Source: Halanaerobiales bacterium
Lineage (GTDB): Bacteria; Bacillota; Halanaerobiia; Halanaerobiales; M55B127
DNA length: 40,761 bases
Assembly: GCA_021736945.1 (NCBI GenBank)
Contig: JAIPEX010000007.1
Coordinates: 1 to 40,761, forward strand
Direction: 5' to 3'
Both the position numbers and the translations under genes were made by a program. The notes below the pieces were generated by a model. That model saw nothing but the letters and a program-made list of their open reading frames with translations, had not been told where the DNA came from and did no database searches. Position 1 is the stretch's first letter. Each line of letters begins with the position of its first letter. This document shows, in pieces, positions 405-33,776 of the stretch.

Positions 405-1121
405 TCATAAAAGAATACTTTCGGCATAAATCGATTCTGGATTCGAAATTAACTTCTCTGGATTTCCTTTTTGTACAATTTTCCCCTCTTTCAAAACAAT
501 AAGTTGATCAGCAAGTTTTAAAGCATCTAGTTTATCATGAGAAACAATTATAGTAGTAATACCAATTTTACTAATAATTTCTTTTAAACTATCCCTAATA
601 TTGTTTTTTAAATTAGTATCTAAGTTACTAAAAGGTTCATCCAATAGTAATATTTTGGGCTCAGTTACAAGAGCTCTAGCGAGTGCAGTACGCTGCTGTT
701 GACCACCACTTAATTGATGGGGATATTTACCACTATGATCCACTAGATCAACTAAATTTAAAGTTTCCATTACCATTTCATTTCTTTTTCTTTTTGATAA
801 ATAATTTATACCAAAACTAATATTTTCAAAAACTGTCATATGGGGGAATAAAGCGTAATCCTGGAAAACCATACCCACTTCCCTTTTTTCAGGTGGGACA
901 AAAGTATTTTCATTATTCATTATTTTATTACCAATTACAATTACCCCTTTTTCAGGTTTTTCCAAACCTGCCAATAACCTCAAAATTGTACTCTTTCCAC
1001 TTCCACTCTCACCCAATATACTAAGCGTTTGACCTTTATGTATATTTAGATCAAAGTCTTTTAATATAGTATCATTATTTTTATCATAATAAAAATCTAT
1101 ATCTTTCATAGTTACAAACAT
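405..1121 (-). CDS. fbpC: iron(III)-type ABC transporter ATP-binding protein
   Basis: Walker A GESGSGKST, signature LSGGQQQR, Walker B LLLDEP; downstream of FbpB-like permease. Confidence 0.88.
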   Translation of the reverse strand: MFVTMKDIDFYYDKNNDTILKDFDLNIHKGQTLSILGESGSGKSTILRLLAGLEKPEKGVIVIGNKIMNNENTFVPPEKREVGMVFQDYALFPHMTVFENISFGINYLSKRKRNEMVMETLNLVDLVDHSGKYPHQLSGGQQQRTALARALVTEPKILLLDEPFSNLDTNLKNNIRDSLKEIISKIGITTIIVSHDKLDALKLADQLIVLKEGKIVQKGNPEKLISNPESIYAESILL

Positions 1122-1124
1122 GAT

Positions 1125-2744
1125 TTACCTTCCTTTCCTTTTAATATTGGTTAAGGAATACACTAAGATCACACTAATAGATATCAAAATTAAAGATAAT
1201 ATTGCTGACTCATGAATCATTTCATCATTAGCATATTCAAAAGCTCTTGTTGCTAACGTATTAAAATTAAATGGTCTTAATATTAATGTTAAGGGTAGTT
1301 CTTTTAATATTTCTATAGATACTAATAAAAAACCACTCATTAAAGCAGGTTTCATCATTGGTAAGTCAACTTTAAAAAATGTTTTAGTAATACCGTTTCC
1401 AAGTGTTCTTGAAGCTTCATGAAAATCAGTTCCGATTTTATTAAATCCAGATTCAACTGAATTAAATCCAACTGCTAAAAATCTAATTAAATAAGCAAAA
1501 ATCAACATGAATATACTTGAACTTAATAGCAGTATATTATTTTGTCCTGTTAAAAATTGTATACCATTATCCATTTTCAAGAAAAATATCATAACACCAA
1601 CTGCTATTACTGCCCCTGGAATTGAATATCCTAAAACAGCTATTCTAGCATAATTCTTAGTTAAAATATTTTCCTTTATTCTTACTGTATTTGCAATAAC
1701 CACTGCTGATACTAAAATGATAAAAGCTCCTATTAAACTTACACCAATTGAATTAAGTACAGTTTTGATAATATTCATATTTACAATTTTCCCATAACTA
1801 ATTATACTCCAGTATATAAGCTGTAATACTGGTATAATAAAACCTAAAGAGAGTACTATAAAAGCATATGAGAACATTAACCAGTTTTTCCAACCTGAAA
1901 TCTTTTTTGCCTTTAAAGGTTTCACTTTTGTAGTACTATAACTATATTGTTTACCACCTCTAGACAATCTTTCCAATAATAAAACTATAAAAACAAAACC
2001 CATTAAATAAACAGACAATCTAATAGCGGAATTAATATCTCCCAGAGAAAACCAAGTTTGAAATATTGAAGTACTAAACGTTGAAATGCCAAAATATTTC
2101 ACAACTCCATAATCATTTAATACTTCTAAAACTACTAAAGTAGTACCAGCCACATAAGCACCTCTACTGATTGGTAGAATGATTCTAAAAAATATATCTA
2201 CTGGGCTTTTACCTAGTGTTTTTGATACTTCTACTAGAGAAGCAGATTGTTTTTGTAAAAAAGCATGTGTGATTAAAAACACATATGGATATAAGAAAAT
2301 TGTATATATAAATACTGCCCCACTTAAAGACATAATATCAAAATAAGATTGATTTAAAACTAAGTCAAAATTATTTCTTAAAAAAGTCTGTATAATACCT
2401 GTATAGTTTAATAAACCTACATAAGTATAACTACCAATATATGGGGGTACAGCTAATGGTAAAATTAAGCCCCATTTAAAGAAATTACTGAATTTGAAAT
2501 CATAAGCATTAACAAACCAGGCCAGACTAACTCCGATTATTATACTGAATAATCCTGTGAAAAAAACTAATATTGCTGAATTAAAGACATAGTCTTTTAA
2601 TAAGTACTTCCTGATATGTAACCAAGTATCACTAATCGGATTAAATAATCCCATTAATATAAATATACTGGGCATTAAAATTAATACAATTATAAAAAAA
2701 CTTATCACAGACCATTTATTTGTAAAACCAATTTTTTTAAACAT
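1125..2744 (-). CDS. fbpB: iron(III)-type ABC transporter permease, fused double permease
   Basis: 539 aa polytopic protein with two permease halves; operon context with SBP and ATPase. Confidence 0.88.
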   Translation of the reverse strand: MFKKIGFTNKWSVISFFIIVLILMPSIFILMGLFNPISDTWLHIRKYLLKDYVFNSAILVFFTGLFSIIIGVSLAWFVNAYDFKFSNFFKWGLILPLAVPPYIGSYTYVGLLNYTGIIQTFLRNNFDLVLNQSYFDIMSLSGAVFIYTIFLYPYVFLITHAFLQKQSASLVEVSKTLGKSPVDIFFRIILPISRGAYVAGTTLVVLEVLNDYGVVKYFGISTFSTSIFQTWFSLGDINSAIRLSVYLMGFVFIVLLLERLSRGGKQYSYSTTKVKPLKAKKISGWKNWLMFSYAFIVLSLGFIIPVLQLIYWSIISYGKIVNMNIIKTVLNSIGVSLIGAFIILVSAVVIANTVRIKENILTKNYARIAVLGYSIPGAVIAVGVMIFFLKMDNGIQFLTGQNNILLLSSSIFMLIFAYLIRFLAVGFNSVESGFNKIGTDFHEASRTLGNGITKTFFKVDLPMMKPALMSGFLLVSIEILKELPLTLILRPFNFNTLATRAFEYANDEMIHESAILSLILISISVILVYSLTNIKRKGR

Positions 2745-2766
2745 AAATTATTCTCCTTAAGTATTA

Positions 2767-2796
2767 AATAGGACAGTTTTTAGTCACTGCCCTATT
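2767..2796 (-). terminator. intercistronic stem-loop between fbpA-like and fbpB-like genes
   Basis: aatagg-a-cagt ...(loop)... actg-c-cctatt inverted repeat. Confidence 0.55.
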
Positions 2797-2806
2797 ATTA
2801 AACACT

Positions 2807-3838
2807 TTATTTCCAACCAACTCTATTAAATATCATGTAAGCCTTTGTATTATTTTCTCCTAGTTTTGAAAGATTAATATCTTGAGATTCAAATTCTCCC
2901 CAAGAACTGAGTAATTCAGATGGTTCTACATTAGGATTAACTGGATACTCATAATTTGCTTTAGCGAACATTTCTTGTGCTTCAACCGAACTAAAATATT
3001 CCATTAATTTAATCGCATTCTCTTTGTTTTTTGCATATTTAGTTAAACCAATACCACTAACATTAATATGAGTTCCTGTAGTTTCTTGGCTTGGAAAAAA
3101 TATTTCAAGTTGTTTTGCTACCTTTACTTCTTCTGGGTTAGATGAATTAAGCATTTTTCCTAGATAATAGGTATTCATTATAGCTATATCACCTTCACCA
3201 GAAGCTATGGCAGTAGCCTGAGCTCTATCATTTCCCTGTGGTTTTCTGGCCATGTTGTCTACAACACCTGCAGCCCACTCAGTTGCCCACTCTTCACCAT
3301 GTATTGCAATTAAGGAAGCTAAAAGAGATTGATTATAGATATTTGAAGAAGACCTAACAAGAATTCTATCTTCCCATTTTTCATCTGTTAAGTCTCCATA
3401 AGTAGATAATTCAGACGGATCTACTCTATCCTTTGAATAAACAATAACTCTTCCTCTAACTGTTAATCCAAACCAATAATTCTCTGTATCTCTTAGATTT
3501 TTAGGAATATTATTAAATAAAGTTTCATTTTCTACTGGTTGTAATAGACCTTTGGTTTTTGCCCTATGTAGCCTACCAGCATCAGCAGTTATTAAAAGAT
3601 CTGCAGAAGTACTTTCTCCTTCACGAATAATTTTTTCAATTAATTCGTCTGAACCTCCTTTTAATACGTTAACCTGTATCCCTGTTTGTTCTTCAAATTT
3701 ATCCAGGAGTAATTTGTCAGTATCATAATGTCTATTGGTATACAGATTTACCTCTCCCTCGGCTCCAATAACTATTGATGAAAATGCGAAAACTAATACA
3801 ACTATTAATAAAATGTTTCTTTTGTTTAAATATTTCAT
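2807..3838 (-). CDS. fbpA: iron(III)-type ABC transporter substrate-binding protein
   Basis: signal peptide, EVNLYTNRHYDTDKLLLDKFEEQTGIQV motif typical of FbpA/FutA-like SBPs. Confidence 0.9.
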   Translation of the reverse strand: MKYLNKRNILLIVVLVFAFSSIVIGAEGEVNLYTNRHYDTDKLLLDKFEEQTGIQVNVLKGGSDELIEKIIREGESTSADLLITADAGRLHRAKTKGLLQPVENETLFNNIPKNLRDTENYWFGLTVRGRVIVYSKDRVDPSELSTYGDLTDEKWEDRILVRSSSNIYNQSLLASLIAIHGEEWATEWAAGVVDNMARKPQGNDRAQATAIASGEGDIAIMNTYYLGKMLNSSNPEEVKVAKQLEIFFPSQETTGTHINVSGIGLTKYAKNKENAIKLMEYFSSVEAQEMFAKANYEYPVNPNVEPSELLSSWGEFESQDINLSKLGENNTKAYMIFNRVGWK

Positions 3839-3987: not shown

Positions 3988-4980
3988 TTAAACTCTTAAT
4001 AACATTGTTGCCATTGTATATCCTACTCCAGAAGCAGTTAGGCAAACTAAATCACCTTCATTTACCTCACCTTTTTCTAAAGCATCATTTAAAGCCATAA
4101 TAATACAAGCATTGCCGGTATAACCATATCTATCCATTATATTGTGGGTTTTTTCCATTTCAATACCTAAATTTTTACAAGTTAATGCAATAGCAGACTT
4201 ATTAATTTGTGTGAATATAAATTTATCAACTTCTTCAAGTTCATAGTCACTTTTATCAAGCATTTTTTCAATAATTACTGGCCACAATTCAGGGTTACGG
4301 TTCATCAATTCACCTTTCCAAAATGTTAAGTTTGGAGGTACGTCTCCCTCACCTTTTACATTTTCAACAGTCGCAGGAAATCTTGTTCCTCCAACATATA
4401 CACCTAACGTCATCCATTGGTCACCATTACCAATGAAGTGTGAAGATAAAATACCTTTATCTGAGTCATCCTTTTGATAAATAGCAGCCCCTGCTCCATC
4501 GGAGAAAACACAGAAAAATTTACCTTTTTCCATATCAGCAAATTTGGTCATATTGTAAGCTGAAATCACCATTACAGTATCGAATTGATCATTATTTTCA
4601 ATCCAATTTCGAGCATTTAACGAACCAAAAACAAAACCTGTACAGGTCGCATTGATATCAAAAAATGGTGCACCGTCTCTCATACCTAAATCATTGGCCA
4701 CAATAGCTGAACTTTGCGGAGAAATTATATCAGGGGTATCAGTAGATAAAATTAACAAATCAATTTCTTCAGCTGACATATCTGCTTTTTTCAAAGCCTT
4801 TTCTCCTGCTTTTACAGCTAAATCAGCGGTGCTCATTTCAGGACCAGTCTGATTTCTTTGTTTAATTCCAAGAGGTTCCATAAATTCACTGATATCTTCT
4901 CCAACAACCTCACTCATTTCATCAAGATCATAGGTGTTATCAGGAGCATAAGAACCTGTTGCTAATAATTTTACACCCAT
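3988..4980 (-). CDS. 3-oxoacyl-ACP synthase III-like (KASIII/thiolase superfamily) protein B
   Basis: DINATCTGFVFGS Cys motif; start moved to ATG at 4980 preceded by GAGGTGA; triad deviates from FabH. Confidence 0.85.
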   Translation of the reverse strand: MGVKLLATGSYAPDNTYDLDEMSEVVGEDISEFMEPLGIKQRNQTGPEMSTADLAVKAGEKALKKADMSAEEIDLLILSTDTPDIISPQSSAIVANDLGMRDGAPFFDINATCTGFVFGSLNARNWIENNDQFDTVMVISAYNMTKFADMEKGKFFCVFSDGAGAAIYQKDDSDKGILSSHFIGNGDQWMTLGVYVGGTRFPATVENVKGEGDVPPNLTFWKGELMNRNPELWPVIIEKMLDKSDYELEEVDKFIFTQINKSAIALTCKNLGIEMEKTHNIMDRYGYTGNACIIMALNDALEKGEVNEGDLVCLTASGVGYTMATMLLRV

Positions 4981-5009
4981 TAAACTCACCTCTTTTTTGT
5001 TATATTATT

Positions 5010-5717
5010 TTATATTCCTAAATATGCTTTTTGAATATGTTCATTACCAGATAGTCCTTCCACAGTATCTTCCATTTCAATTTTTCCATTTTCAAGAACA
5101 TATCCACGATCTATTATTTTTAAACCCTGCTGAACATTTTGTTCCGCAAGAAGGATAGATACGTTTTGTTTTTTTATCTCTCCCATTTTTTTAAACAACT
5201 CTGTTACTAAGGAAGGCTGTAAGCCCACAGAAGGCTCATCAAGGATTAGTAATTTAGGATTAGACATCAATGCCCTACCTAAAGCTAACATCCTTTGTTG
5301 TCCCCCACTCATGGTTCCTGCAAGTTGTTTTTCTCTTTCTTTTAATATAGGGAATATATTATACACAAACTCTAAATTGCTATCCGTTTTTTTCCTAGCA
5401 TGTGGAATATAAGCTGCCCCGAGTTTCAAATTTTCTTTTACAGTCATTAAAGGAAATAGTTCTCTTTTTTGGGGGACTAATGCAATACCTTTTTTAACTA
5501 TTTGATGAGTTTCTAAATCTCCTATTTCTTCACCATCAAATTTAATACTTCCTTCTCTGTTATCTACCAAGCCCATAATTGCTTTAATTAAAGTACTTTT
5601 ACCAGCACCATTAGAGCCAAAAATACTGACGGCTTCGTCATCTTTAACTTCCATTGATAAATCCCAGATCACCTGAATTCTTCCGTATGATACGTCTAGA
5701 TTATTTATTTCAAGCAT
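5010..5717 (-). CDS. livF: branched-chain amino acid (LIV)-type ABC transporter ATP-binding protein
   Basis: Walker A GSNGAGKST, MSGGQQRMLALGRAL, LAEQNVQQGLKI LivF-type motif. Confidence 0.92.
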   Translation of the reverse strand: MLEINNLDVSYGRIQVIWDLSMEVKDDEAVSIFGSNGAGKSTLIKAIMGLVDNREGSIKFDGEEIGDLETHQIVKKGIALVPQKRELFPLMTVKENLKLGAAYIPHARKKTDSNLEFVYNIFPILKEREKQLAGTMSGGQQRMLALGRALMSNPKLLILDEPSVGLQPSLVTELFKKMGEIKKQNVSILLAEQNVQQGLKIIDRGYVLENGKIEMEDTVEGLSGNEHIQKAYLGI

Positions 5718-5718
5718 A

Positions 5719-6432
5719 TTATTCCTCCCCCAGGTAAGCAGCTATAACTTCTTTGTTTTCAGATACTTTACTATATGGACCTTGAGCTATTATTTCACCT
5801 TTATTTAAAACTATAACTCGATTAGTAAGTTCTTTAACCACTTTCATGATATGCTCCACTACACAAATTGCCACATTTCTTTCTTGCAACTCTTTTACTA
5901 TATCCATCAATTCCCAGGTCTCCTCACTTGTAAGACCAGCCATTATTTCATCCAAAAATAATACATCTGGCTCTGAAGCTAAAGCCCTACCTAATTCAAC
6001 CTTTTTTAATTCTAAAACTGTTAACTCATCCACACTTTTATTTACATTTTCTAAATTCAAGAAATCACATATTTCCCTAGCAGTCGAACGGGCCTCAGAT
6101 AATTTATCACCTTTACCAAATAAAGCCCCTACCATAATATTTTCAATAGCGGAGAAATTTTCTAAGGGGCGAACAATTTGAAATGTTCTAGCAATGCCCA
6201 AACGATTTCTTGTATGTGCTTCCTTATTAGTTACATCTACATTATTAAATTCAATGGATCCTTTATTAACAGGTAAAGTACCTGCCATTAAATTAATTAC
6301 AGTTGTTTTTCCGGCTCCATTTGGTCCTATAATACCTAGAATCTCACCCTTTTCAACTTCAAAGGATAAATCATTGACAGCAACTAAACCACCGAATCTT
6401 CTAACTATATTATTGGCCTTAAGTGTGGGCAT
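5719..6432 (-). CDS. livG: LIV-type ABC transporter ATP-binding protein
   Basis: Walker A GPNGAGKTT, VVEHIMKVV; start chosen at ATG 6432 with GGGGGGGAT upstream. Confidence 0.92.
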   Translation of the reverse strand: MPTLKANNIVRRFGGLVAVNDLSFEVEKGEILGIIGPNGAGKTTVINLMAGTLPVNKGSIEFNNVDVTNKEAHTRNRLGIARTFQIVRPLENFSAIENIMVGALFGKGDKLSEARSTAREICDFLNLENVNKSVDELTVLELKKVELGRALASEPDVLFLDEIMAGLTSEETWELMDIVKELQERNVAICVVEHIMKVVKELTNRVIVLNKGEIIAQGPYSKVSENKEVIAAYLGEE

Positions 6433-7363
6433 TGTTATCCCCCCCAACGATATTACTCTTTAACAATTTATTTTTAATCGGAGTATATACTCCTTGTGGT
6501 AAAAATAAGACCACAATTACAATAATGAATCCATATACAACTAAATGGCCGTAAGGCATTATTAATTTTAGATATTCTGATATTAAACCTAAAATTAAAG
6601 CACCTATAATAGGACCATTAGTACTATATATTCCACCTACTAGTGCCATTGCGAGTGGCAATAGTAAAAAGTTAAGTGAAAATGTACTTTCAGGATTAAC
6701 AAAAGCATATTGTTGTGCATAAGCTGCTCCCACTAACCCCTGAATTGCAGAAGTTACTACAAAAACAAATAGTAAATATTTGAATACATCAATACCACTT
6801 GATTTAGCAGTTGTTTCATCATTACGAATTGCATTAATTGCATAATGAATCCTACTTCTACTGAATATTTCAGACATTAATATTGTAAGTAAAGCAATTA
6901 TTAATATCATATAATATAATTTTGTGGGATTCCCATTGAAAATTGCATTACTTAATTGAGTACCGCTTGCCCCTCCGGTAAGACCAGAGAGATTTCTAAT
7001 AATTACAGAAAAAACATGGGTTAAAGCTAAAGTTGTAATCGCAAAGTAAATTTGTCGTAATCTTAAAACTATAAAACCTAATGCAAATGCAATCAATCCA
7101 GAAAAAGCTGCTCCAATAAACAAACTTAAGACTGGGTTAAAACCCATATTGGCAACTATTAATACCGAAGCATAAGCTCCTAAACCAAAAAATCCAGCAG
7201 TACCAAAAGAAAGTTGTCCTGTTCTTAACATCATGTCCCAGCTTAATCCTAATGCCATAAATACTAATATTGTGTTAAAAACACTCATTACATAGGCACC
7301 AGCATATAAGGGAAGTGTAAATGCAATTATTAGTAAAAGTACAATAAATAAATTCTTTTTCAT
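6419..7363 (-). CDS. livM: LIV-type ABC transporter permease
   Basis: polytopic, LivM-type sequence GQLSFGTAGFFGLGAYAS. Confidence 0.92.
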   Translation of the reverse strand: MKKNLFIVLLLIIAFTLPLYAGAYVMSVFNTILVFMALGLSWDMMLRTGQLSFGTAGFFGLGAYASVLIVANMGFNPVLSLFIGAAFSGLIAFALGFIVLRLRQIYFAITTLALTHVFSVIIRNLSGLTGGASGTQLSNAIFNGNPTKLYYMILIIALLTILMSEIFSRSRIHYAINAIRNDETTAKSSGIDVFKYLLFVFVVTSAIQGLVGAAYAQQYAFVNPESTFSLNFLLLPLAMALVGGIYSTNGPIIGALILGLISEYLKLIMPYGHLVVYGFIIVIVVLFLPQGVYTPIKNKLLKSNIVGGDNNAHT

Positions 7364-8286
7364 TATTTTGCCCCCCTATATGATCTAGCTATAATTACTA
7401 TTATTAAAACTCCAAAGAATACTATATCGGACCAACCGCCATAATTTGGAATATAATTAATTGCTGACTCACCTATACCTAATAAGATACCAGCAAATAA
7501 AATTCCATTTAAATTACCAAGCCCTGCCATTGCAGCAAGAGCAAAAGATTTAAGTGTAAAAGGGGAGCCTACGGCAGGAAAAATTGATGTTCTAGGTAAC
7601 ATAGCTCCAGCAACAATCCCTAGAATTGCTACCGCTAAACTAAATACAAACAAATAGACATATTCAACATTAATTCCTACTATTTTTGCACCTTTAGGAT
7701 TTTGTCCAACAGCAAAAGTAGCCTGCCCTAATCTAGTTTTTTTCAAAAATAACTGTAATCCAACTAAAACAGCTACTGCAAATAATATATACAGTAATTC
7801 ATAAGTACCAAATCTAAATCCACCTATTTCAGTGGATGCATATGCATATTGAGTATAAACATTTCTTGCTTGAGAAGTCCAAATAATGTTTATAACTTCC
7901 ATTAAGATCAATGATACACCAAAAGTAATTAGCAGTTGACTTAAATGCCCTTTATTAACAACTTTTTTTACAGTTAAATAATATATAATACCGCCTAAAA
8001 TCGCTAAAAATATTATTGTTGGTATAATTGAAACTAGAGGATCCATACCAAACTTATTGTTAAGCATATATATAAAATAAAAACCAACAGTTAAAAACTC
8101 ACCATGTGCTAAGTTTAAGACCCCTAAAATACCTAATACTAAAGCTAATGGTAAGGCAATTAAAGCATATAAACTACCTCTTTGCAGGCCATCCATTAAA
8201 GCATTGGGGTTCCAAAAACCTACTATTATCATAAATATTGCTAATAATAATATTATTGTATATGTTTTTTTAAGAGAAAGTGACAT
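7363..8286 (-). CDS. livH: LIV-type ABC transporter permease
   Basis: polytopic, LivH-type GVLNLAHGEFLTVG. Confidence 0.92.
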   Translation of the reverse strand: MSLSLKKTYTIILLLAIFMIIVGFWNPNALMDGLQRGSLYALIALPLALVLGILGVLNLAHGEFLTVGFYFIYMLNNKFGMDPLVSIIPTIIFLAILGGIIYYLTVKKVVNKGHLSQLLITFGVSLILMEVINIIWTSQARNVYTQYAYASTEIGGFRFGTYELLYILFAVAVLVGLQLFLKKTRLGQATFAVGQNPKGAKIVGINVEYVYLFVFSLAVAILGIVAGAMLPRTSIFPAVGSPFTLKSFALAAMAGLGNLNGILFAGILLGIGESAINYIPNYGGWSDIVFFGVLIIVIIARSYRGAK

Positions 8287-8365: not shown

Positions 8366-9607
8366 TTAAAAGCTATAAGGATATTCGATTTCAGAAGTTG
8401 CTAAATCAAATGGCCAAATAACATGTTGTTTACCATTTTGATACTGTAATATCTTTTGACTAGTAAAACCTTGATTTTGAATTACATTACTTGGAGTCAT
8501 TTTTAAAGTAGTACCTAGAGGAGAATCATATTCTGTATTTTTTAATGATTCAATCAATGCTCCTTTTTCAAGTGTGCCTGCATTTCTGATTCCTTTAGCA
8601 AGATACATAATATTAGTATAACCTAATGGTGCAAAGTAAGTTGCTGGTCTTTCACCATGCATCTTAATATATGCGTCCCAGAAATGTGCTGCTTGTTCAT
8701 TAACTTCTTTTAAAGCAGGGGCCCACATACCATATAAGATTACCTTATCGGAAAGTGGATTTGCTTCAAAATCTTGAGGCCATCCTGGAGGAGCTCCTAC
8801 AAATAGTGGTGGTTCAAATCCAACTTCTCTGGATTGGGCTAAAAGACCTATAGCATCAGCATCATATCCAGCCCAGATAAATAGATCTGGATCATATTCT
8901 TTAGCTTGACGTAACATAGCTCTATATTCTCCGCCACCTAAAGCAGCACTTTTAAATGAAGCTCCTGCAAAGTCTTCCATAATTTCAGCAAATGGACCTT
9001 CACCTTCTTGAGCACTTTCAAACATTGATTTATAAGCTTCAAAGGAATCAGTACCAAAAGCTCCTTCTTCATAAGCTAAGAAAACACGACCTACATCAAT
9101 TTCTTCGTTTTCTTTTACTATTTCTGTCCAACCTTCACCATAACTTGCACCCTGTTGGTAATCCCAAGGATGTAAATGGAAATACCAATCAGCATCAGGA
9201 CCAACAGCTTCTTCAGCTTTATGGGAAGCTGCTCCAGCCCAAACAGTTATTTTTTTATATTTTTTTAATGTAGGAATTTGAGCCTGGTGCACTCCACTTG
9301 ACATACCACCAACAAAAAAGTCAACTTCGTCTACAGTAGCTAACTTATCAATAGCAGCTGCACCTTTTTCAGGCTTAAACTCACTATCAATTACAACTAG
9401 TTCTACTTTTCTTCCTAATAAACCACCATTATCATTAATTTCTTTTACAGCTAATTCCATGGCTTTACTAGACTGTCTACCTGTAATATCTCCTAATGGG
9501 TTTACTGCACCAATCTTAATTGGATCATCTTGAGCCAAAGCACTTAAACTAAAAGTAAAAGCTAAAATTAATACTAATGAAACAATTAATAAATTATTTC
9601 TCTTCAA
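8366..9607 (-). CDS. LIV-type ABC transporter substrate-binding protein (Peripla_BP_6 family)
   Basis: signal peptide NNLLIVSLVLILAFTFSLSALAQ, IKIGAVNPLGDITGRQ; probable TTG start at 9607 with GGGGGA upstream (ORF call begins 9667). Confidence 0.92.
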   Translation of the reverse strand: MKRNNLLIVSLVLILAFTFSLSALAQDDPIKIGAVNPLGDITGRQSSKAMELAVKEINDNGGLLGRKVELVVIDSEFKPEKGAAAIDKLATVDEVDFFVGGMSSGVHQAQIPTLKKYKKITVWAGAASHKAEEAVGPDADWYFHLHPWDYQQGASYGEGWTEIVKENEEIDVGRVFLAYEEGAFGTDSFEAYKSMFESAQEGEGPFAEIMEDFAGASFKSAALGGGEYRAMLRQAKEYDPDLFIWAGYDADAIGLLAQSREVGFEPPLFVGAPPGWPQDFEANPLSDKVILYGMWAPALKEVNEQAAHFWDAYIKMHGERPATYFAPLGYTNIMYLAKGIRNAGTLEKGALIESLKNTEYDSPLGTTLKMTPSNVIQNQGFTSQKILQYQNGKQHVIWPFDLATSEIEYPYSF

Positions 9608-9708
9608 TTTATAATCCCCCTTAAAATAATTGTTAGTTTTTTTCAAAATTACTTTACTAAAATGCAATCATTTTGATTATCAATATCACATCCTTTCAAT
9701 ATAATTTT

Positions 9709-11001
9709 TTACCAAATCTTTAACTCATTAGCCTTTTCTCTAATTTCATCTCTAAAATCTGGATGCGCTATACTAATCATAGCATCTACTCTATCTCTTA
9801 TACTTTTTCCTTTTAAATGTGCTACTCCATATTCTGTCACCACATAATCAATATCATTTCTCCCTAAAGTAATCTTAGAACCTAGTGGTAATTGAGCTAA
9901 AATCGTAGAATATTCACCGCCTTTTGCAGTAGACCTGAGAGCAATAATTCCTTTACCCCCTTCAGATCTTTGGGCACCACGGTGAGTATCTACTTGACCA
10001 CCAGTACCACTGTAATGTTTGTTGCCAATAGCTTCTGAACAAACCTGACCAGTTACATCAACCTGTAAGGCTGTATTGACACTTATCATTTTGTGATTTT
10101 GACCTAAAATGTATGGATCATTTGTTACTTTACCTTGTTGAAATTCCACAGCTAAATTTTTATCAATAAAATCATATAGTTTTTGAGTACCCAGGGCAAA
10201 AGTACCTACCATTTTTCCTTTCCAGAGAGTTTTCTTTTTGTTATTAATTACTCCCTTTTTAAAGAGGTCAACCATACCGTCTGTAAACATTTCAGTGTGG
10301 ACTCCTAAATTCTTTTTATCTTCAAGTGCTTCTGTGATAGCATTAGGAATACCACCAATACCCAATTGTAAAGTAGAACCATCTTCAATCAACTCTGCAA
10401 CATTTTCCCCTATTTTTTGTTCCACTTCTCCGGGTTCTATATAAGGTAATTCAATTAATGGAGCATTATTTTCTACCACATAATCGACATCAGAAATATG
10501 AACTTGTGTATCCCCTAATGTCCATGGTAAATTTTCATTAACTTCTAATACTACCATATCAATATTTTCTACCATTTGCTTTTCATAGGTAAGCCCTAAG
10601 GATAAAGAAAAGAATCCATTTTTATCCATTGAAGTCGCTGTACCCCAGAAAATATTAATATTATCATTATCAATTTTAATTGAACCAGCTTCATGTAAAT
10701 TATTTGGGATATATGTTACATTGCCATGTTTATGATTAGCTCTATCTCCTGGACCATAAAACCAAGTTTCGTTTAAAAAATGACCTTTCATTTCTGGTTT
10801 TAAAAAATCATAGTCTCCCATCATAAGACAAGAAACTATATTTACATTTTCCAATTCATCCTTATGGTTACCAAGTTCTGATAAAAGTCCTTGTGGTTCA
10901 GAACCTGCCATAGCAGTACAGACTTTCTGATTGGACTCAACTTTGGAAACTGCTTCTGGTATTGAAATTAACTTTTCTTTATATAGTTCTTTGAAATCCA
11001 T
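9709..11001 (-). CDS. acetyl-CoA hydrolase/transferase family protein (4-hydroxybutyrate/butyryl-CoA CoA-transferase-like)
   Basis: LGIGGIPNAI, GVHTEMFTDGMVDL active-site Glu region; ~430 aa. Confidence 0.9.
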   Translation of the reverse strand: MDFKELYKEKLISIPEAVSKVESNQKVCTAMAGSEPQGLLSELGNHKDELENVNIVSCLMMGDYDFLKPEMKGHFLNETWFYGPGDRANHKHGNVTYIPNNLHEAGSIKIDNDNINIFWGTATSMDKNGFFSLSLGLTYEKQMVENIDMVVLEVNENLPWTLGDTQVHISDVDYVVENNAPLIELPYIEPGEVEQKIGENVAELIEDGSTLQLGIGGIPNAITEALEDKKNLGVHTEMFTDGMVDLFKKGVINNKKKTLWKGKMVGTFALGTQKLYDFIDKNLAVEFQQGKVTNDPYILGQNHKMISVNTALQVDVTGQVCSEAIGNKHYSGTGGQVDTHRGAQRSEGGKGIIALRSTAKGGEYSTILAQLPLGSKITLGRNDIDYVVTEYGVAHLKGKSIRDRVDAMISIAHPDFRDEIREKANELKIW

Positions 11002-11029: not shown

Positions 11030-11770
11030 TTAAAGACTAATTCCTCCGTTTACATCTAACACTGTGCCATTACAGTAATCTCCAGCAGATGATGCTAGAT
11101 ATAAATAAGCATTAGCTACATCTTCAGGTTTCCCTAATTCACCAAAAGGAACTTTATCTCTTAATTTATTTAGTACTTTTTCTGGAATTTTTGCAACCAT
11201 TTCTGTCATAATGTATCCAGGAGCAACAGCATTAACATTAACTCCTTTTGAACCTAATTCTTTAGCCCAAGTCTTAGTCATACCAATTACTCCGGCTTTT
11301 GTTGCAGAATAATTTGTCTGCCCTATATTACCTTGTTCTCCTACTACAGAAGAGGTATTAATAATTTTCCCCTCTCCTTTATCCATCATGAGAGGCGCAA
11401 CGGCTTTTGTACAATTAAATACACCTTTCAAATTGATATCTATAACTTTATTCCATTGGTCGTGACTCATTTTTGTTAAAAATGAGTCGGCTGTAACACC
11501 AGCATTATTTATCAAAATATCAATTGTGTTATATTTATCTATTACTTTATCTACCATATCTTGAACCTGTTCCCATTTCGAGACATCAACTTTTATAAAA
11601 AATGCTTCTTTCCCATCATTATTAATTTTTTCAGCTACTTCTTTACCAGCTTCTGAATCAAAATCTGCAATTACTACTTTTGCACCTTCTTCAGCAAATT
11701 TTAGAGCACTGGCCTTACCTATTCCACTGCCTGCTCCTGTAATAATTGCAACTTTATCTTTCAATCTCAT
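11030..11770 (-). CDS. SDR family oxidoreductase, FabG/acetoacetyl-CoA reductase-like
   Basis: TGAGSGIG, NNAG, Ser-Tyr-xxx-Lys (SSVVG...YSATK), start at ATG 11770 after GTGGAGGT. Confidence 0.92.
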   Translation of the reverse strand: MRLKDKVAIITGAGSGIGKASALKFAEEGAKVVIADFDSEAGKEVAEKINNDGKEAFFIKVDVSKWEQVQDMVDKVIDKYNTIDILINNAGVTADSFLTKMSHDQWNKVIDINLKGVFNCTKAVAPLMMDKGEGKIINTSSVVGEQGNIGQTNYSATKAGVIGMTKTWAKELGSKGVNVNAVAPGYIMTEMVAKIPEKVLNKLRDKVPFGELGKPEDVANAYLYLASSAGDYCNGTVLDVNGGISL

Positions 11771-11807
11771 ACCTATAACCTCCACTTTCTAATTATGAAT
11801 TAAAAAC

Positions 11808-12818
11808 TTATCCCCATTTGATAGTGAGAGCATTCCAAGCATAACCGATACCTGCACTCACAAATACTACTAAATCTCCTGGTTTAACTTTTCCTTCTTC
11901 TAAAGCAAGTTCTAATGAAATAATTTGATCATTTTGTCCTATATGTCCATACTCATCTAGATATATACTCTGTTCCTCAGTTAATCCTAATTGTTCTAGC
12001 ATAAACTGATGAGCAGAATATTTCATATGAAGTATTGCTATATAATCAACATCATCCATTGTATATCCACTATCTTTAACAGAATCTTTTACAACCCCTA
12101 CAAAATTATCAATTGAAACCTCATTAAGTCTTTCTTTCATAAATTCTGGTTGAAGAACATCTAAATGATGTTCATTATTTTCTAGTCTTTCTGGAGTTAA
12201 TTCTCTTTTAGTGCCCCCAGCAGGAACAACAACACTTTCTGAAAGTGAACCATCTGTTCTAGCTGTAGCTTTTAAAATCTCATTTTTATCAATATTTTTT
12301 TTCAAAATAGCAGCAGTACCACCTGCACCCAAATTATACATAAAAGATACTTTGGGATTATCAAAATCAATGAGATCCCCATTTCTATAACCTGATCCTA
12401 TTAATACAGTATCCATATTTTCATTGGATAATAGCATATCTTTAGCCACTTTCATTGCCATTATCATTGTTCCACATCTTAGAGCAATATCAAAAGCCCA
12501 AGCATTTTTTGCACCTATTTCATGTTGTAATTTAATAGAAGCAGTCCACATTGGATATTCTTTATGCTCGGCACCTGCCCAGATCACTAAATCAATATCT
12601 TCAGGGTTTATATCTGCTTTTTTTATAGCAGTGTTTGCTGCTTTTATACCCATTGCACAGGTGTGGTCTTTTTCACCTGGAATCGGTTTTTTCTTAATTC
12701 CAAATTTATTTCTTATAACATCTTCTGGAATATCTGTTTTTTCTGCGATTTCCTCACTATCCATATAATTATCTGGTATATAAACACCAGTTGAGAGGAT
12801 TCCTACTTTTTCTTCCAC
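11808..12818 (-). CDS. 3-oxoacyl-ACP synthase III-like protein A
   Basis: KASIII-fold sequence; GTG start at 12818 with GGGGGTGA upstream; IALRCGTM Cys motif; first gene of the operon. Confidence 0.85.
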   Translation of the reverse strand: MEEKVGILSTGVYIPDNYMDSEEIAEKTDIPEDVIRNKFGIKKKPIPGEKDHTCAMGIKAANTAIKKADINPEDIDLVIWAGAEHKEYPMWTASIKLQHEIGAKNAWAFDIALRCGTMIMAMKVAKDMLLSNENMDTVLIGSGYRNGDLIDFDNPKVSFMYNLGAGGTAAILKKNIDKNEILKATARTDGSLSESVVVPAGGTKRELTPERLENNEHHLDVLQPEFMKERLNEVSIDNFVGVVKDSVKDSGYTMDDVDYIAILHMKYSAHQFMLEQLGLTEEQSIYLDEYGHIGQNDQIISLELALEEGKVKPGDLVVFVSAGIGYAWNALTIKWG

Positions 12819-12851
12819 ATCTTCACCCCCATTAATTAATTTGTTAATTAA

Positions 12852-12896
12852 ATTATAAATAAAAATAGTTACTAAGATGTTGCATTGGAGTTACAA
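12852..12896 (-). promoter_or_regulatory. activator-type promoter P1 of the KASIII/LIV operon with three phased heptamers
   Basis: minus strand TTGTAAC-TCCA-ATGCAAC-ATCT-TAGTAAC-N10-TATAAT; 11-bp period. Confidence 0.75.
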
Positions 12897-12937
12897 ATAT
12901 TATTTTGATTTATATTATTCTGAATATTACTACTATA

Positions 12938-12981
12938 ATTATAATAAAAATAAGTTACAAAATAGTTGCAAAAAGTTAAAA
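12938..12981 (-). promoter_or_regulatory. activator-type promoter P2 of the KASIII/LIV operon with phased heptamers
   Basis: minus strand TTTTAAC-TTT-TTGCAAC-TATT-TTGTAAC-N10-TATAAT; the last two repeats are 11 bp apart. Confidence 0.7.
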
Positions 12982-13006
12982 TAATCGGTTTATTAACAAA
13001 ATATAA

Positions 13007-13036
13007 AAGCCGGGGTTTTTAATAATTACCCCGACC
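13007..13036 (-). terminator. terminator of the SARP/MalT-like regulator gene
   Basis: cggggt-ttttaataatt-accccg stem, minus strand followed by a T-rich run. Confidence 0.75.
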
Positions 13037-13051
13037 TTAAATAGCTTAAAT

Positions 13052-16000
13052 TTAATTTTTCTTTATTTCCTTATATAATTCAATTGTTCTTTGGGTTGGA
13101 ATAACTCCTAAATCTTCTTCTAATTTTTCTGCACATCTTTGATAAGTTCTAATAGCTTGAGAACGCTGTCCAAGTTTGTTGTAAGCCTTCATCATAAGCT
13201 GGTATGCTTCCTCAACTGTTGATTCTTCAGCAATTAATTTTTCGGACATTTCAATAGCCTTTTGGTTTTTATCTAATTTTAGATATAATTCTGCTAATAG
13301 TTCTAATCCCTGAATGAATAATTGTTTATATTTTTCTCTAACTTCACGTGTCCAATCTTGATAGAGACAGTTTGGCAGATAGTTTCCATTATAAAGTTCA
13401 ATTCCTTCATTTAAACTTTTAATTGCCTCCCCTATTTCATCATTTTTAGACTTTCTTATACCTTTTTTAATCAATTCTTCAAATTGATTTACATCTACTT
13501 TATATGAAGAATCGGGGTTCAAACCATATCTAGATCCTTTTTTATTAATAAAATAAGGGGTTGCTCTTGCCTTTCTATTTGGTTCTAAAACATTATTGAG
13601 AGCGTTTAGTGCTACTTTAAAATCTCTTAAGGCTGATTTTTGATCTTTTTTAGTAGATATCATTTCAGCTAGTCTCTCTTTTGAAATCAATTCATCCTGA
13701 TATGTTAAAAATATTTTAAAAAGAGTCCTTGCCTTTTTTCTTTTCCAATCTTTATCTTTAATTTCAGTTCTACCACGCAGTAACTTAAATTTACCGAGCG
13801 TTTTAACCCTTAATGTATAACCGGGGTGATTTATTCCCAACTCAATATCCATGTCTTCGAGCATTAATTTACAAAAATCTTTTTCTATTTCCATATTATA
13901 ACCTGTTGTTAAAATTGGAAGTAAAGTAGTCTCATCACGAGGGCCTAATAAATTAATTGTTTTAAATATAAATTGCAAATTATTTTTTTGTATTATTGGT
14001 ACAACCTCTTCTAATCGATGTTTAAAATCAACTTTATGCTCAAGTTTGCAATCTATTAGAGTTAGCCAAATCTGTCCAACCGTCTTACCAAAAACATCAT
14101 TGCAATAATCAAATGATTTAACTGCCTTTGTTAACCACTCTGTAGCTTCTTTATATTTTTCAAGAAATATATAACCGATACCTAAAGAAAGTTGTATTAA
14201 ACTACCCAACCATTCATCTCCAGCTTCTTCACAAATATCTATTCCTTCTAACCCATATTTTTTCATCTGCTCTTCATAACCTAAATTTCCGTAAACTAAA
14301 GTTAACCCCCACAAAGCTTCGGCACGCCCTCTGCGCACTTCCAGCTTATCAACTATCTCTAAACTTTTTTCATAAGCATTAAGAGCCTTTTCTTGCTTGT
14401 CTTGACCGTTAATCTGTAAAGCATGACCCAATCTCATGTGAGCAACTGCCTGAGTAAATAAAGAATCCAAGTTTTTTGATTTCTTCAAACCAGTTTTAGC
14501 ATATTCTAAAGCTTTATTACTTTTTCCTTCAAAAGAAGCAATCAATGATAGTAATAAGATGGTTTCACGATGAGCTCTACCAACTTTTTTCTCGTTTTCT
14601 ACATCTTCTTCTTTAAGTTCTTCTTTTAATATATTTTCCGCTTCTTTTAATCTTCCAGTTCTGATTTTGACTCTTGAATCAAGGATAAAACTGGTATTTT
14701 CTTCATCAAGTTTATTTAATTTTTCCTGCATTTCTTTAGCTTTTGTAACATTTCCTCTATTTAAATAATTTTCAGCCACTAAACGAAGCAAAACGGACTC
14801 TTCCCAGTAATTTTCTTTTTCTCTTAGTTCCAAAGCCTTTTTAAGATACTTATCAGCCTCTGAAGGTTGAACAGTATCAAGATAAATCATAGCCATCTTC
14901 TGAAAAGCCACACTTACTCCCTTATAGTCATCCTGTTCTTTCAAATACTTTCTACCGAGATTATACCATTCAAGTGCTTCATTATAATTACATGTGAATC
15001 GGTCTATATCTCCCTTATATAGATATAAACGCGGAAAATTCTCTACTATTCTTTCGGGTAATTTTTCAAACCATTTGTCAAAGGTACTAAAACGACCCGA
15101 AGTAAGTAATTTATTCGCTCGTTTCTTAATAATTTTAGCAGCGGTAAAGTAATCACCACTTTCTAAATTATGATAGACTGCTTCTTCAAATTGATTATTA
15201 TCCATATAATATTTTGCTATATCTTTTTGTAAAAGAGAAATATTATTTAACTCTTCATTCGCATGTTCTTTCAAGAAATCATGAAATAAGTGGTGATACC
15301 TGTATTTATTATCATCTAATTGGATTATGAACAAATCATTTTTTACTAAATATTTAAGTATCTGATCACTATTATTCTTTTTACGAACAAAATCACAAAC
15401 TTCTGAAGTTAATACCCTTAAGATCGAAGTTTTAATTAAAAACTTCCTTACCTCTTCATTTTGCTTTAATAATATTTCTTTAGCTAAATAATTAAAAAGG
15501 TGATCTAAAGAATGCATTGATTCTTCTCTTACCACTTCTAAAGAATCGCCATTTTTTATTCCCTGTCTAATCATTTCAACCCCAATTATCCAACCTTCAG
15601 TTAAATCATAAATCAAGGTTATATCATCTTCACTTAAATTATAATCATAATGGCTATTATAAAATCTTTCTATTTCTTTTTTACTTAACTTAAGATCATC
15701 TTCATTAATTTCTAAAATTTGGTCTTTCACTCTCCACATGCTAAGTGAAGTAAGATCAGGTGTCTTTCTTGTAGATAAAACTACATGCATATTGGGAGGT
15801 CGATGGTCTATAAAATGCTCCATTAATTTATTAATACGGGGCTGATTATTTAATAAATGGTAATCATCAATAATTAAATAAATTTCATCATAACGATATT
15901 TATCCCAAATTTCATTTATTAAAGAGTTTAAAACTGGTATCCATTCCTGATTAGTTTCTCCTTTTTCTTTAATGAAATTCAAGGTTTTTTCACCAATATC

Positions 16001-16273
16001 AGAATCAGTCGTATTAAAAGCATATATTAAATTAATGAGAAAGGTTAATACATCTCCATCTCCCTTACTAACGTTGTACCAAAATACATTATCTTTATCA
16101 TTAAAACCATATGTCAGATATGCACTCTTACCATAGCCTGGTCCCGCTTTTACCATAGTTACTGGGTACTTAGCGGTTTTTTCAAAAATTCTTTTTAAAT
16201 GTTTTCTTGAAAATATTTTACTTTTATAATAAGGTGGAAGAAATTTTGTTCTTACTACAATGTTTCCAAACAC
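13052..16273 (-). CDS. large AfsR/MalT-like transcriptional regulator: STAND-type ATPase, TPR region, C-terminal OmpR-like wHTH + BTAD (SARP) module
   Basis: N-term GPGYGKSAYLTYG P-loop and LIIDDYHLL; central TPR-like helices; C-term RVKTLGKFKLLRGRTEIKDKDWKRKKARTLFKIFL and LEEDLGVIPTQRTIELYKEI typical of SARP/BTAD; GTG start. Confidence 0.9.
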   Translation of the reverse strand: MFGNIVVRTKFLPPYYKSKIFSRKHLKRIFEKTAKYPVTMVKAGPGYGKSAYLTYGFNDKDNVFWYNVSKGDGDVLTFLINLIYAFNTTDSDIGEKTLNFIKEKGETNQEWIPVLNSLINEIWDKYRYDEIYLIIDDYHLLNNQPRINKLMEHFIDHRPPNMHVVLSTRKTPDLTSLSMWRVKDQILEINEDDLKLSKKEIERFYNSHYDYNLSEDDITLIYDLTEGWIIGVEMIRQGIKNGDSLEVVREESMHSLDHLFNYLAKEILLKQNEEVRKFLIKTSILRVLTSEVCDFVRKKNNSDQILKYLVKNDLFIIQLDDNKYRYHHLFHDFLKEHANEELNNISLLQKDIAKYYMDNNQFEEAVYHNLESGDYFTAAKIIKKRANKLLTSGRFSTFDKWFEKLPERIVENFPRLYLYKGDIDRFTCNYNEALEWYNLGRKYLKEQDDYKGVSVAFQKMAMIYLDTVQPSEADKYLKKALELREKENYWEESVLLRLVAENYLNRGNVTKAKEMQEKLNKLDEENTSFILDSRVKIRTGRLKEAENILKEELKEEDVENEKKVGRAHRETILLLSLIASFEGKSNKALEYAKTGLKKSKNLDSLFTQAVAHMRLGHALQINGQDKQEKALNAYEKSLEIVDKLEVRRGRAEALWGLTLVYGNLGYEEQMKKYGLEGIDICEEAGDEWLGSLIQLSLGIGYIFLEKYKEATEWLTKAVKSFDYCNDVFGKTVGQIWLTLIDCKLEHKVDFKHRLEEVVPIIQKNNLQFIFKTINLLGPRDETTLLPILTTGYNMEIEKDFCKLMLEDMDIELGINHPGYTLRVKTLGKFKLLRGRTEIKDKDWKRKKARTLFKIFLTYQDELISKERLAEMISTKKDQKSALRDFKVALNALNNVLEPNRKARATPYFINKKGSRYGLNPDSSYKVDVNQFEELIKKGIRKSKNDEIGEAIKSLNEGIELYNGNYLPNCLYQDWTREVREKYKQLFIQGLELLAELYLKLDKNQKAIEMSEKLIAEESTVEEAYQLMMKAYNKLGQRSQAIRTYQRCAEKLEEDLGVIPTQRTIELYKEIKKN

Positions 16274-16403
16274 TTTTACACCCCTCTATATATTACTTCT
16301 ATTTAATTAAAATTCAATGAATCAATTAAAATTCCTTTATAATTAAATGAAATACTCAATAATTACCTTTTGCAAATATAAATAGAATAAATAAAAATAG
16401 TGC

Positions 16404-16431
16404 TTGACATTTTTTTCACAAGTGTGATAAT
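16404..16431 (+). promoter_or_regulatory. strong sigma-A promoter of secreted protein gene
   Basis: TTGACA -16 bp- GATAAT with extended -10 TG (tgtGATAAT). Confidence 0.75.
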
Positions 16432-16483
16432 ATTAACTTAAGTTGAGTAATTTGATAATAAATATATTAAAAGGAGGGATTTC

Positions 16484-16981
16484 ATGAAATTTAAAACTTT
16501 AGGTATTTTATTAATTGTATCAGTTCTTGTTCTCGTACCTGCAGCTGTTAGTGCTCAGGACACAGTGTCATCTGCTTCTCAACCAACTAATGATGAACAA
16601 TTAGTTAAAGCATTGGGGGAAGATGGTACTTGGATCATTATCTTTAATGATGACTATAGTACTGATAAGGAATTAGTTATGGAAGGCAAATTTGAAAACG
16701 ATGGTGAAGTTGACCGTAAGTTAGCTCTTTATGCCTCAGATAGTGACCATAATGTAACTGAAAGATATACACTAGAAGCTCCTAGCATAACAGTTAAAAG
16801 CCCTAGTGCTAGATTTCAAAATGGTACATTTGTTGGAGACGTTTATGTTGAATCCAACAACTTTGCTTTAAACGGTTTTACAGTTGATGGTGACATCTAT
16901 TTTGAAACAAAAGAAGCCAAAGCTACATTCACTGTTAATGGTGGAACAGAAATTACAGGAGATTTAATCAATAATTTCTAA
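16484..16981 (+). CDS. small secreted protein with beta-rich C-terminal half, unknown function
   Basis: RBS aaaggaggg, clear signal peptide (LILLIVSVLVLVPAAVSAQ-type), repetitive beta-like segments. Confidence 0.85.
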   Translation: MKFKTLGILLIVSVLVLVPAAVSAQDTVSSASQPTNDEQLVKALGEDGTWIIIFNDDYSTDKELVMEGKFENDGEVDRKLALYASDSDHNVTERYTLEAPSITVKSPSARFQNGTFVGDVYVESNNFALNGFTVDGDIYFETKEAKATFTVNGGTEITGDLINNF

Positions 16982-17235: not shown

Positions 17236-17280
17236 TTGCAACTGGATTGTAACTTGTAGGTAACATTGTTTTATTAAAAT
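17236..17280 (+). promoter_or_regulatory. activator-type promoter P3 of the thiolase gene with three phased heptamers
   Basis: TTGCAAC-TGGA-TTGTAAC-TTGT-AGGTAAC-N10-TAAAAT; 11-bp period. Confidence 0.75.
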
Positions 17281-17324: not shown

Positions 17325-18506
17325 TTGCAAGAAGTAGTTATAGCTAGTGCAACACGTACTGCTATTGGTTCATTTGGTAAGAGTTTAAAGAATGTTCCTG
17401 TTGTAGATCTTGGTACAAAAGTGATTGAAAATGCTCTAAACAGAGCTAATGTTAGTCCTGAAGTAGTTGAAGACGTCATAATGGGAATTATTCTACAGGC
17501 AGGTAAAGGACAAAATGCAGCTAGACAAGCAGCCCTTAAAGCCGGACTCGGTGTTGATGTACCGGCAATGTCAATTAATAAACTCTGTGGATCCGGACTT
17601 AAATCTGTGAACTTAGCAGTTCAAGAAATACTTCTAGGAGATGCCGAAGTTGTAATAGCAGGTGGAATGGAAAGTATGAGTAGAGCACCTTATGTTTTGG
17701 ATAAAGCCCGTTTTGGATACAAGATGGGAGACGGTAAAATTGTTGATACAATGATAAAAGATGGTTTAACATGTGCAGTTAATGATTATCATATGGGTAT
17801 CACAGCAGAAAATTTAGCTGAAAAATATAATATTAGTAGAAAAGAACAAGATGAATTTGCTGCCAAAAGTCAAAATAAAGCTATTAAAGCGATTGATAAT
17901 GACCGTTTCCAAGATGAAATAGTACCTATAGAAGTACCTCAAAGAAAAGGTGAACCAAAATTATTTAAAAAAGATGAACTTCCTCGCAGAGGCATTACAG
18001 CTGATTCTTTATCGAAATTAAGCCCAGCTTTTAAAGAAGATGGTACCGTCACTGCTGGTAATTCTTCCGGTATCAATGACGGAGCAGCAGCACTATTAGT
18101 TATGACAAAAGAAAAAGCTGAAGAATTAGATGTAAAACCTTTAGCCAAAATAGTATCATATGCAACCGCTGCAGTTGATCCTAAAATAATGGGAATAGGA
18201 CCTGTTCCCTCAATTAAAAAAGCTTTAGCGAAAATTGATTGGGAATTAGAAGACATTCAACTTGTTGAATTAAATGAAGCATTTGCTGCTCAATCTCTTG
18301 CAGTTTTAAAGGAGTTACCTTTTGATCCAAATATTGTAAATGTAAATGGTGGTGCTATTGCATTAGGACACCCAATAGGGGCAAGTGGTGCAAGGATTCT
18401 TGTAACATTACTACATGAAATGAAAAAACGTGAACTTAAAAGAGGTTTAGCTTCCCTTTGTGTTGGTGGAGGTATGGGAGTTACAACTATAATAGAAACT
18501 TTATAA
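17325..18506 (+). CDS. acetyl-CoA C-acetyltransferase (thiolase)
   Basis: [33 protein letters not shown] thiolase signatures; TTG start with AGGAGGG RBS. Confidence 0.95.
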
Positions 18507-32366: not shown

Positions 32367-33776
32367 TTAATTAGCAATAGGAAGTTCAAAATAAAAACTA
32401 GCTCCCTCTCCCCTTTTACTTTTAACTCCTATCTTACCATTATGGGATTCAATGATTTCTCGACAGATAGCTAGTCCAAGGCCAGTACCTCCGAATTTAC
32501 GCGAACGCGATTTCTCCCCTCTAAAAAATTTATTGAATAACTTGGATTGGTCTTCTTTTCTTATACCAACTCCATTATCAGTAATGGTTACTTTAAGGTA
32601 AGTGTCTAATACTTCAAATGATATTTTGACAAAACCATCTTTATCAATAAATTCTCGAGCATTTTTGATAATATTGTCAACTACTTGTATAATCCTATTT
32701 TTATCAATCTTTATCTTTTCATCAGGAATCGGTCTATCAACAATTAGTTTATGTTCAATTTGTTCAAATTCCATTTCTATAGGTTTTAATATTTGTTCAA
32801 AAACAGAGGAACTTTGATATTCCTTTTTATTAATATTCAATCGGTCCAATTCTAATTTTGAAAAATAAAATAAATCATCGATTAAATGATTTAATTTAAT
32901 CGACTTATCTTTTATTATTTCAAGATATCTATTATATGAATTAACATCCTTTGGTATACCATCTATCAAACCTTCTATATATCCCTGAATTGAGGTAATA
33001 GGGGTTTTTAGATCATGCGAAATACTAGCAATTAATTCTTTGCGATTGTTCTCATATTGCGACTGTTTTTCAAGAGATTGTTTTAATTTTAATCTCATTG
33101 TTTCAAAAGCCTGACAAAAACTCCCTAATTCGTTATCAGCACAGTAATCAATCTCATAATTCAAATTTCCTTCAGCAATATTCTTGGTAGCTTCATTAAG
33201 TTCTTCTAAAGGTATTAAAATTTGTCTTGAAATTGTTTGACTAAAATAATATACTAAAAAACCTAACAGTATTATAGAAATTACAATACCAACAACTATA
33301 TACTTCATTACCGTACCTTGCACGCCTTCATACATTGCATCCATATCTAAGACTAGTGAATATACATAATTACCAGTAGGAGTATTGACCTCATCTAGAT
33401 AAGTAAAGTAATCAGTATCTGAACGAGCATTTATATTTAATTTATTATATTCAAATTTTGTTATATTTTCATTTTCTGAATTGAATATAATGAGATCGGA
33501 TTCTGAATTAATTATCTGTAATTCCCCTTTATATTGCACTAACAAATCTTCTATACTATTTTTGAAAGCTTCATAATCATTTAAAGATTGAATATTGTTC
33601 TCTATTCTTGTCTCAAATTTATCTATGATAGTTCCTACTTCTGTTATTGGACCATTACTATTTAAATACATTCCCAAAATATTAAAAAAACCTATATAAA
33701 ATATGATAGGAATTAAAACTATTAAAATAAAATATATTATTAATTTAGTTCTTAAGCTAAAATTAAATCTGCTCAT
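32367..33776 (-). CDS. two-component sensor histidine kinase
   Basis: HAMP-like region, ISHDLKTPITSIQGY H-box, NIIKNA, GGTGLGLAI. Confidence 0.95.
   Translation of the reverse strand: MSRFNFSLRTKLIIYFILIVLIPIIFYIGFFNILGMYLNSNGPITEVGTIIDKFETRIENNIQSLNDYEAFKNSIEDLLVQYKGELQIINSESDLIIFNSENENITKFEYNKLNINARSDTDYFTYLDEVNTPTGNYVYSLVLDMDAMYEGVQGTVMKYIVVGIVISIILLGFLVYYFSQTISRQILIPLEELNEATKNIAEGNLNYEIDYCADNELGSFCQAFETMRLKLKQSLEKQSQYENNRKELIASISHDLKTPITSIQGYIEGLIDGIPKDVNSYNRYLEIIKDKSIKLNHLIDDLFYFSKLELDRLNINKKEYQSSSVFEQILKPIEMEFEQIEHKLIVDRPIPDEKIKIDKNRIIQVVDNIIKNAREFIDKDGFVKISFEVLDTYLKVTITDNGVGIRKEDQSKLFNKFFRGEKSRSRKFGGTGLGLAICREIIESHNGKIGVKSKRGEGASFYFELPIAN

Follow-up and report, generated by a model that had tools for sequence, protein, structure and literature searches.

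The DNA analyzed here (the window, 40,761 nucleotides of a Halanaerobiales bacterium) encodes one very large regulator next to genes for CoA-ester catabolism, which raises the question of what kind of regulator this is and which promoters it controls. A first-pass annotation, made from the letters alone, had placed a large regulatory ORF at positions 13052-16273 without giving a strand; ORF analysis and profile searches confirmed it as a minus-strand gene with a GTG start and a product of 1073 aa (here REG). Judged by its sequence, REG couples a STAND sensor of MalT type to a SARP effector, with the two halves in the order opposite to that of AfsR, and a salt-loving anaerobe appears to use it to switch on a pathway for organic-acid breakdown.

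The proposal that the N-terminus resembles MalT was borne out by both profile and structure matches. The NCBIfam MalT model NF003420 scored 260 bits over residues 7-523, and the solved MalT structure 8bob aligned to residues 33-412 (E 5e-35). The ATPase (NOD; approximately residues 1-345, window 15239-16273, minus strand, borders approximate) carries a P-loop (GPGYGKS), a Walker B motif (LIIDDYH) and a winged-helix-like region related to that of MalT (YRYHHLFHDFL), a set of features that identifies it by sequence as a MalT-type STAND ATPase. Because the NF003420 score lies under the model cut-off of 537, however, we consider REG a relative and not an orthologue of MalT. Profile matches place an arm and TPR sensor region next (approximately residues 346-815, window 13829-15238, minus strand, borders again approximate). 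At the C-terminus there was no Pfam match to a LuxR-type HTH; the protein instead ends in a SARP module, composed of an OmpR-type DNA-binding region (approximately residues 816-925, window 13499-13828, minus strand; assigned by SARP profile alignment and weak when taken alone), with RDFKVALNALNNVLEP as its presumed recognition helix, and a BTAD (residues 926-1070, window 13064-13498, minus strand; Pfam).

The first-pass annotation had described this C-terminus as a winged helix plus BTAD, and the two halves fared differently. The BTAD was unambiguous (96 bits against a Pfam cut-off of 22.1), whereas Pfam Trans_reg_C did not reach E 1e-3 on REG. The DNA-binding region was recovered with a profile of 20 orthologous C-termini (261 aa), positions 8-258 of which matched the cryo-EM chains of AfsR (E 8e-11) in an alignment that spans the DNA-binding region plus the BTAD, as in a SARP; the same profile also aligned to EmbR (E 1e-3), and a profile of the DNA-binding region alone aligned weakly to PhoB (E 0.23). 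Structure prediction, the check that had been suggested, helped little: the AlphaFold model of whole REG was poor (pLDDT 47, pTM 0.27) and was discarded, and a model of the SARP module by itself (pLDDT 57) had AfsR as its best Foldseek match (E 3e-4, TM 0.4), which is weak support. It is the matches to MalT, TPR and BTAD, together with the AfsR and EmbR profile alignments, that lead us to describe REG as a MalT-type sensor with a SARP effector.

Since a SARP module, a NOD and TPRs are all found in REG, it could in principle be an AfsR orthologue acquired from Actinobacteria, but we regard this as extremely unlikely. The domain order is reversed (not SARP-NOD-TPR), the ATPase is of MalT type, relatives of REG are spread over many Bacillota families, and the AfsR model NF053617 gave only 47.7 bits against a cut-off of 1430, with its best stretch in the SARP part. 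Domain order and profile scores thus refute an AfsR orthologue, and the AfsR-like make-up proposed at first has to be given up. The same is true of the idea that a BTAD outside Actinobacteria would be notable in itself: REG is the sole BTAD protein found in its own 2.36-Mb genome, but BTAD matches were also obtained in the control genomes of B. subtilis, E. coli and T. maritima, and BrpL has been published (PMC5987052), so this occurrence is already known and not new.

Control of the adjacent pathway by REG is suggested in the first place by synteny across genomes. Downstream of REG and on the same (minus) strand, profile searches identified an operon that begins with a FabH-like enzyme of the PRK06840 type (FabH1, 11808-12818) and continues with a FabG-like short-chain dehydrogenase (SDR, 11030-11785), a CoA-transferase of the 4-hydroxybutyrate / butyryl-CoA:acetate type (9709-11001) and a LIV-type ABC importer consisting of a substrate-binding protein (8366-9667; Pfam Peripla_BP_6) and two permeases plus two ATPases (5010-8286). 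A second FabH-like enzyme (FabH2, 3988-4989), assigned by profile searches and synteny, is the last gene of the conserved operon. On the other flank, a 165-aa ORF and then a divergent thiolase (17325-18506) lie on the plus strand. Regulators 31-93% identical to REG adjoin the same kinds of gene in other genomes, and the conserved synteny reaches several Bacillota families outside the class of the window. The connection to a CoA-ester catabolic operon that had been drawn from this one stretch is therefore much strengthened, both by synteny and by the predicted operators before the operon and the thiolase described below.

Several features of the neighborhood are recorded here in their own right. 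Both FabH-like enzymes depart from the canonical triad, each in its own way and each conserved across genera: mostly Cys-His-His in FabH1, and Cys-Gln with a YGYTGN motif in FabH2, the canonical FabH triad being Cys-His-Asn. FabH1 and FabH2 might act as a working pair. The 165-aa ORF (16484-16981) has a signal-peptide-like start and no Pfam match, and is absent from this place in two related loci (L004 and L005). The operon is followed here by another ABC importer (405-3838), made up of a binding protein, a fused permease and an ATPase; this importer, too, is not found there in L004 or L005, and the scan showed no operator upstream of it. An Rfam search of the window gave no match.

The 233-bp gap upstream of the operon (12819-13051) contains two predicted operator-promoters on the minus strand: P1, a doublet (12938-12970; TGCAACT-4-TGTAACT-9-TATAAT), and P2, a triplet (12852-12895; TGTAACT-4-TGCAACA-4-AGTAACT-9-TATAAT). 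A third, also a triplet, precedes the thiolase, its predicted target, on the plus strand (17237-17280; TGCAACT-4-TGTAACT-4-GGTAACA-9-TAAAAT). The layout common to all three is a series of TGYAACT-like heptamers with an 11-bp period, followed by 9 bp and a -10 box. The P1 doublet and P2 triplet stand in tandem at a distance of about 75 bp, an arrangement that L003, L004 and L005 preserve.

This geometry fits published SARP operators. In these the spacing of direct repeats is 11 or 22 bp, and 8 bp separate the 3′ repeat from the -10 box (PMC10936776); classically, each unit consists of a heptamer and a spacer of four bases, arranged for PimR as a triplet and a doublet (PMC5930380). The difference between 9 and 8 bp depends on the heptamer start chosen. 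When the -10 box is set to begin at -12, the last two heptamers occupy -39 to -33 and -28 to -22 and so each fall within one half of the afs box of AfsR (-40 to -30 and -29 to -19). The scan found no operator in the gap upstream of REG itself (16274-16483), and for this reason REG is apparently not self-regulating here; in two other genomes (G417 and G435) a site does precede REG.

How specific is this pattern? The exact form, TGYAACTNNNNTGYAAC, occurs three times in the 2.36-Mb genome, every copy at the REG locus, against 0.29 expected under a first-order Markov model of the window, and the triple array occurs genome-wide at two promoters, both at that locus. At lower stringency the genome was less instructive: off-locus matches with one mismatch were about as frequent as those to a reversed control pattern, and a scan of the window alone with two mismatches (5 seen, 3.7 expected) was uninformative. 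Because the half-site pattern had been taken from the REG locus before it was tried elsewhere, the fair tests are those at other loci. In 34.9 kb of noncoding DNA from 28 loci, encoding regulators 31-59% identical to REG or their trans targets, 17 exact TGYAAC pairs were spaced at 11 bp and no other spacing between 7 and 30 bp had more than one, counts that are not fully independent since some of the loci come from related genomes. With one mismatch allowed, 35 pairs lay at 11 bp compared with no more than 7 elsewhere, and those 7 fall at 22 bp, that is, two helical turns. A TA...T box followed the last heptamer at 9 bp in 38 of 48 non-redundant sites, the next best spacer accounting for 8 of 48, although one family (f59) had better -10 boxes at 8 bp. 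By manual count, 23 of the 27 exact sites in 17 REG-bearing genomes are at pathway genes; 20 genomes without a REG match contain two sites, neither near pathway genes. Around some orthologues (L054, L058, L103 and others) the DNA read contained no site. One further genome carries a second, partial REG copy (L065, G004:C37; 68% identical), which precedes its own FabH1-SDR-CoA-transferase genes with an operator.

These counts leave the question of whether the repeats belong to REG or to another factor. OmpR-family relatives such as PhoB also bind tandem repeats near 11 bp, and the genome encodes five Trans_reg_C proteins, one of them a response regulator in the window (33773-34480), so that REG might act elsewhere while such a protein owns the repeats. 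This candidate was rejected because it was not found beside the repeats at other loci. The best evidence for REG is that the operator letter co-varies with the regulator subfamily. In a sister subfamily, 26-30% identical to REG and lacking both the pathway operon and exact TGTAAC pairs, TGTAAG pairs occur at 11 bp instead (3 exact and 13 with at most one mismatch, against no more than 4 at other spacings), and no TGTAAG pair at 11 bp was found in REG loci. A phylogeny of residues 1-815, and thus without the DNA-binding module, places the two subfamilies apart and implies a single C/G change of operator letter, counted over rows with a site in the DNA read. Given also that sites abound in genomes with REG but are scarce in those without a REG match, we consider ownership by another factor highly unlikely.

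The presumed recognition helix differs along the same division, with F-K-V or L-K-V in the REG group and F-[N/S/Y]-V in the sister group. REG K886 aligns with AfsR R87; the AfsR residues that read bases, T88 and R92 (PMC10936776), correspond to V887 and A891 of REG and are not conserved. Such a loss would be expected of a protein reading another heptamer and is not proof of binding. Neighbors of the sister subfamily include chemoreceptors and a PAS-HD protein. At L055-L062 this subfamily, with its TGTAAGT repeats at 11 bp, lies near chemoreceptor and signaling genes, sometimes with several REG-like genes in a row.

With REG as the probable owner of the repeats, we propose that it activates transcription as an inducer-gated STAND protein. 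The ATPase of MalT type, together with the TPR arm, would presumably sense a pathway metabolite and ATP, and, by inference from MalT, both ligands would release autoinhibition and allow self-association; for comparison, what stimulates AfsR is the binding of ATP and not its hydrolysis (PMC10936776). Once REG has associated, adjacent SARP modules would occupy the direct heptamers at their 11-bp spacing; these heptamers, ending 9 bp before the -10 box, would stand in for the -35 element, and RNA polymerase would be recruited as it is by SARPs. In this way REG would turn on the operon from FabH1 to FabH2 through two promoters and the thiolase through one. Heptamers that overlap the -35 position would also allow REG to bind as a repressor, blocking that region until the inducer comes; nevertheless, no separate -35 box is evident near the good -10 boxes at the 9-bp spacing, and the characterized SARPs and MalT are activators (PMC10936776), which makes repression very unlikely. 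We have good confidence in REG as an inducer-gated activator on 11-bp heptamers that replace the -35 element and drive the operon and the thiolase, for what is most likely hydroxyacid breakdown.

What the pathway degrades can be judged in part from sites elsewhere in REG-bearing genomes. On another contig of one such genome (G014) lies an additional cluster of FabH1-CoA-transferase and LIV genes, in which a single site precedes each unit, and in G045 a site precedes an SDR on another contig. A wider scan added sites at an SDR and thiolase unit and at an alpha/beta hydrolase (G005), at an SDR and LIV unit (G043), at a lipase-like alpha/beta hydrolase (G042) and at acyl-CoA ligases (G440 and G248). 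Three exact 17-base sites were found in G042, the first at the REG operon, the second upstream of a unit including a PHB-depolymerase-family esterase and the third upstream of a MaoC / acyl-CoA dehydrogenase / ETF unit. In G435 an esterase of the same family lies just past the REG cluster on the same strand, with no site in the DNA read there. Some trans matches lack an evident link to the pathway (for example G168 C88) and may be due to chance.

From these enzyme families, the pathway most likely imports and degrades hydroxyacids, perhaps 3-hydroxybutyrate or polyester monomers, a substrate class for which we put the chances little better than even. For the inducer, the first-pass annotation had suggested an acyl-CoA or the transported carboxylate; going by the predicted regulon, the candidates are a hydroxyacid, the CoA ester of that acid, or a product of polyester breakdown. 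The regulator and operators could be just as described and the pathway nonetheless serve another carboxylic or beta-keto acid, a reading that falls only slightly short of an even chance. LIV-type binding proteins and FabH-like enzymes suit many acids, and the substrate is an inference only, since the esterase family PF10503 also includes other esterases and had no match in the window genome. The sites before the PHB-depolymerase-family and MaoC / acyl-CoA dehydrogenase / ETF units, and those at SDR, thiolase, alpha/beta hydrolase and acyl-CoA ligase genes, argue for hydroxyacids. A search of the literature for a carnitine pathway gave no lead.

As far as sequence comparison can establish it, the advance here lies in the conserved operator code of SARP type and in the predicted regulon of a MalT-SARP class across Bacillota. 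A concrete DNA code for these large regulators makes their regulons readable from genomes, and the REG operators point to a carbon pathway common to halophilic and other Bacillota. Because TGTAAC goes with F-K-V and TGTAAG with F-[N/S/Y]-V in the presumed recognition helix, the pair of subfamilies offers a direct test of SARP specificity. More broadly, activation of the SARP type, known from antibiotic control in Streptomyces, may be a promoter mode of more general use, to which different STAND sensors can be attached. The fullest version of this proposal is that a Bacillota-wide MalT-SARP family, with TGTAAC or TGTAAG according to subfamily, controls anaerobic use of polyester-derived hydroxyacids, by -35 replacement outside Actinobacteria, in primary metabolism and under inducer and ATP control; we advance it tentatively, at clearly less than even confidence.

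In open-licence papers, a sample that gives weak evidence, neither a MalT-SARP hybrid nor its operator was found described, and the known systems each resemble REG in part. BrpL (SSA_0427) of Streptococcus sanguinis is, like REG, a BTAD and TPR protein in Bacillota; the passages considered link it to glucan and biofilm and describe no operator or STAND mechanism (PMC5987052). EmbR of M. tuberculosis shares the DNA-binding region and BTAD, but lacks a STAND ATPase and a TPR sensor and carries an FHA domain (PMC10936776). MalT, the E. coli STAND activator of maltose genes, shares its ATPase and following region with REG residues 7-523, and activation gated by inducer and ATP is presumed for REG by analogy with it; MalT ends in a LuxR-type HTH where REG has a SARP module, and REG differs further in its predicted tandem 11-bp heptamer operators and its target genes. 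AfsR and SARP-LAL regulators such as PimR of Streptomyces combine, as REG does, a SARP module with a STAND-type ATPase, and their operators consist of heptamers with 4-bp spacers in doublets or triplets near the -10 box, as predicted for REG (PMC10936776, PMC5930380). In those proteins, however, the SARP module is N-terminal, whereas REG carries it at the C-terminus behind an ATPase of MalT type, has different residues at the base-reading positions, would recognize TGYAACT and appears to target catabolic rather than antibiotic genes.
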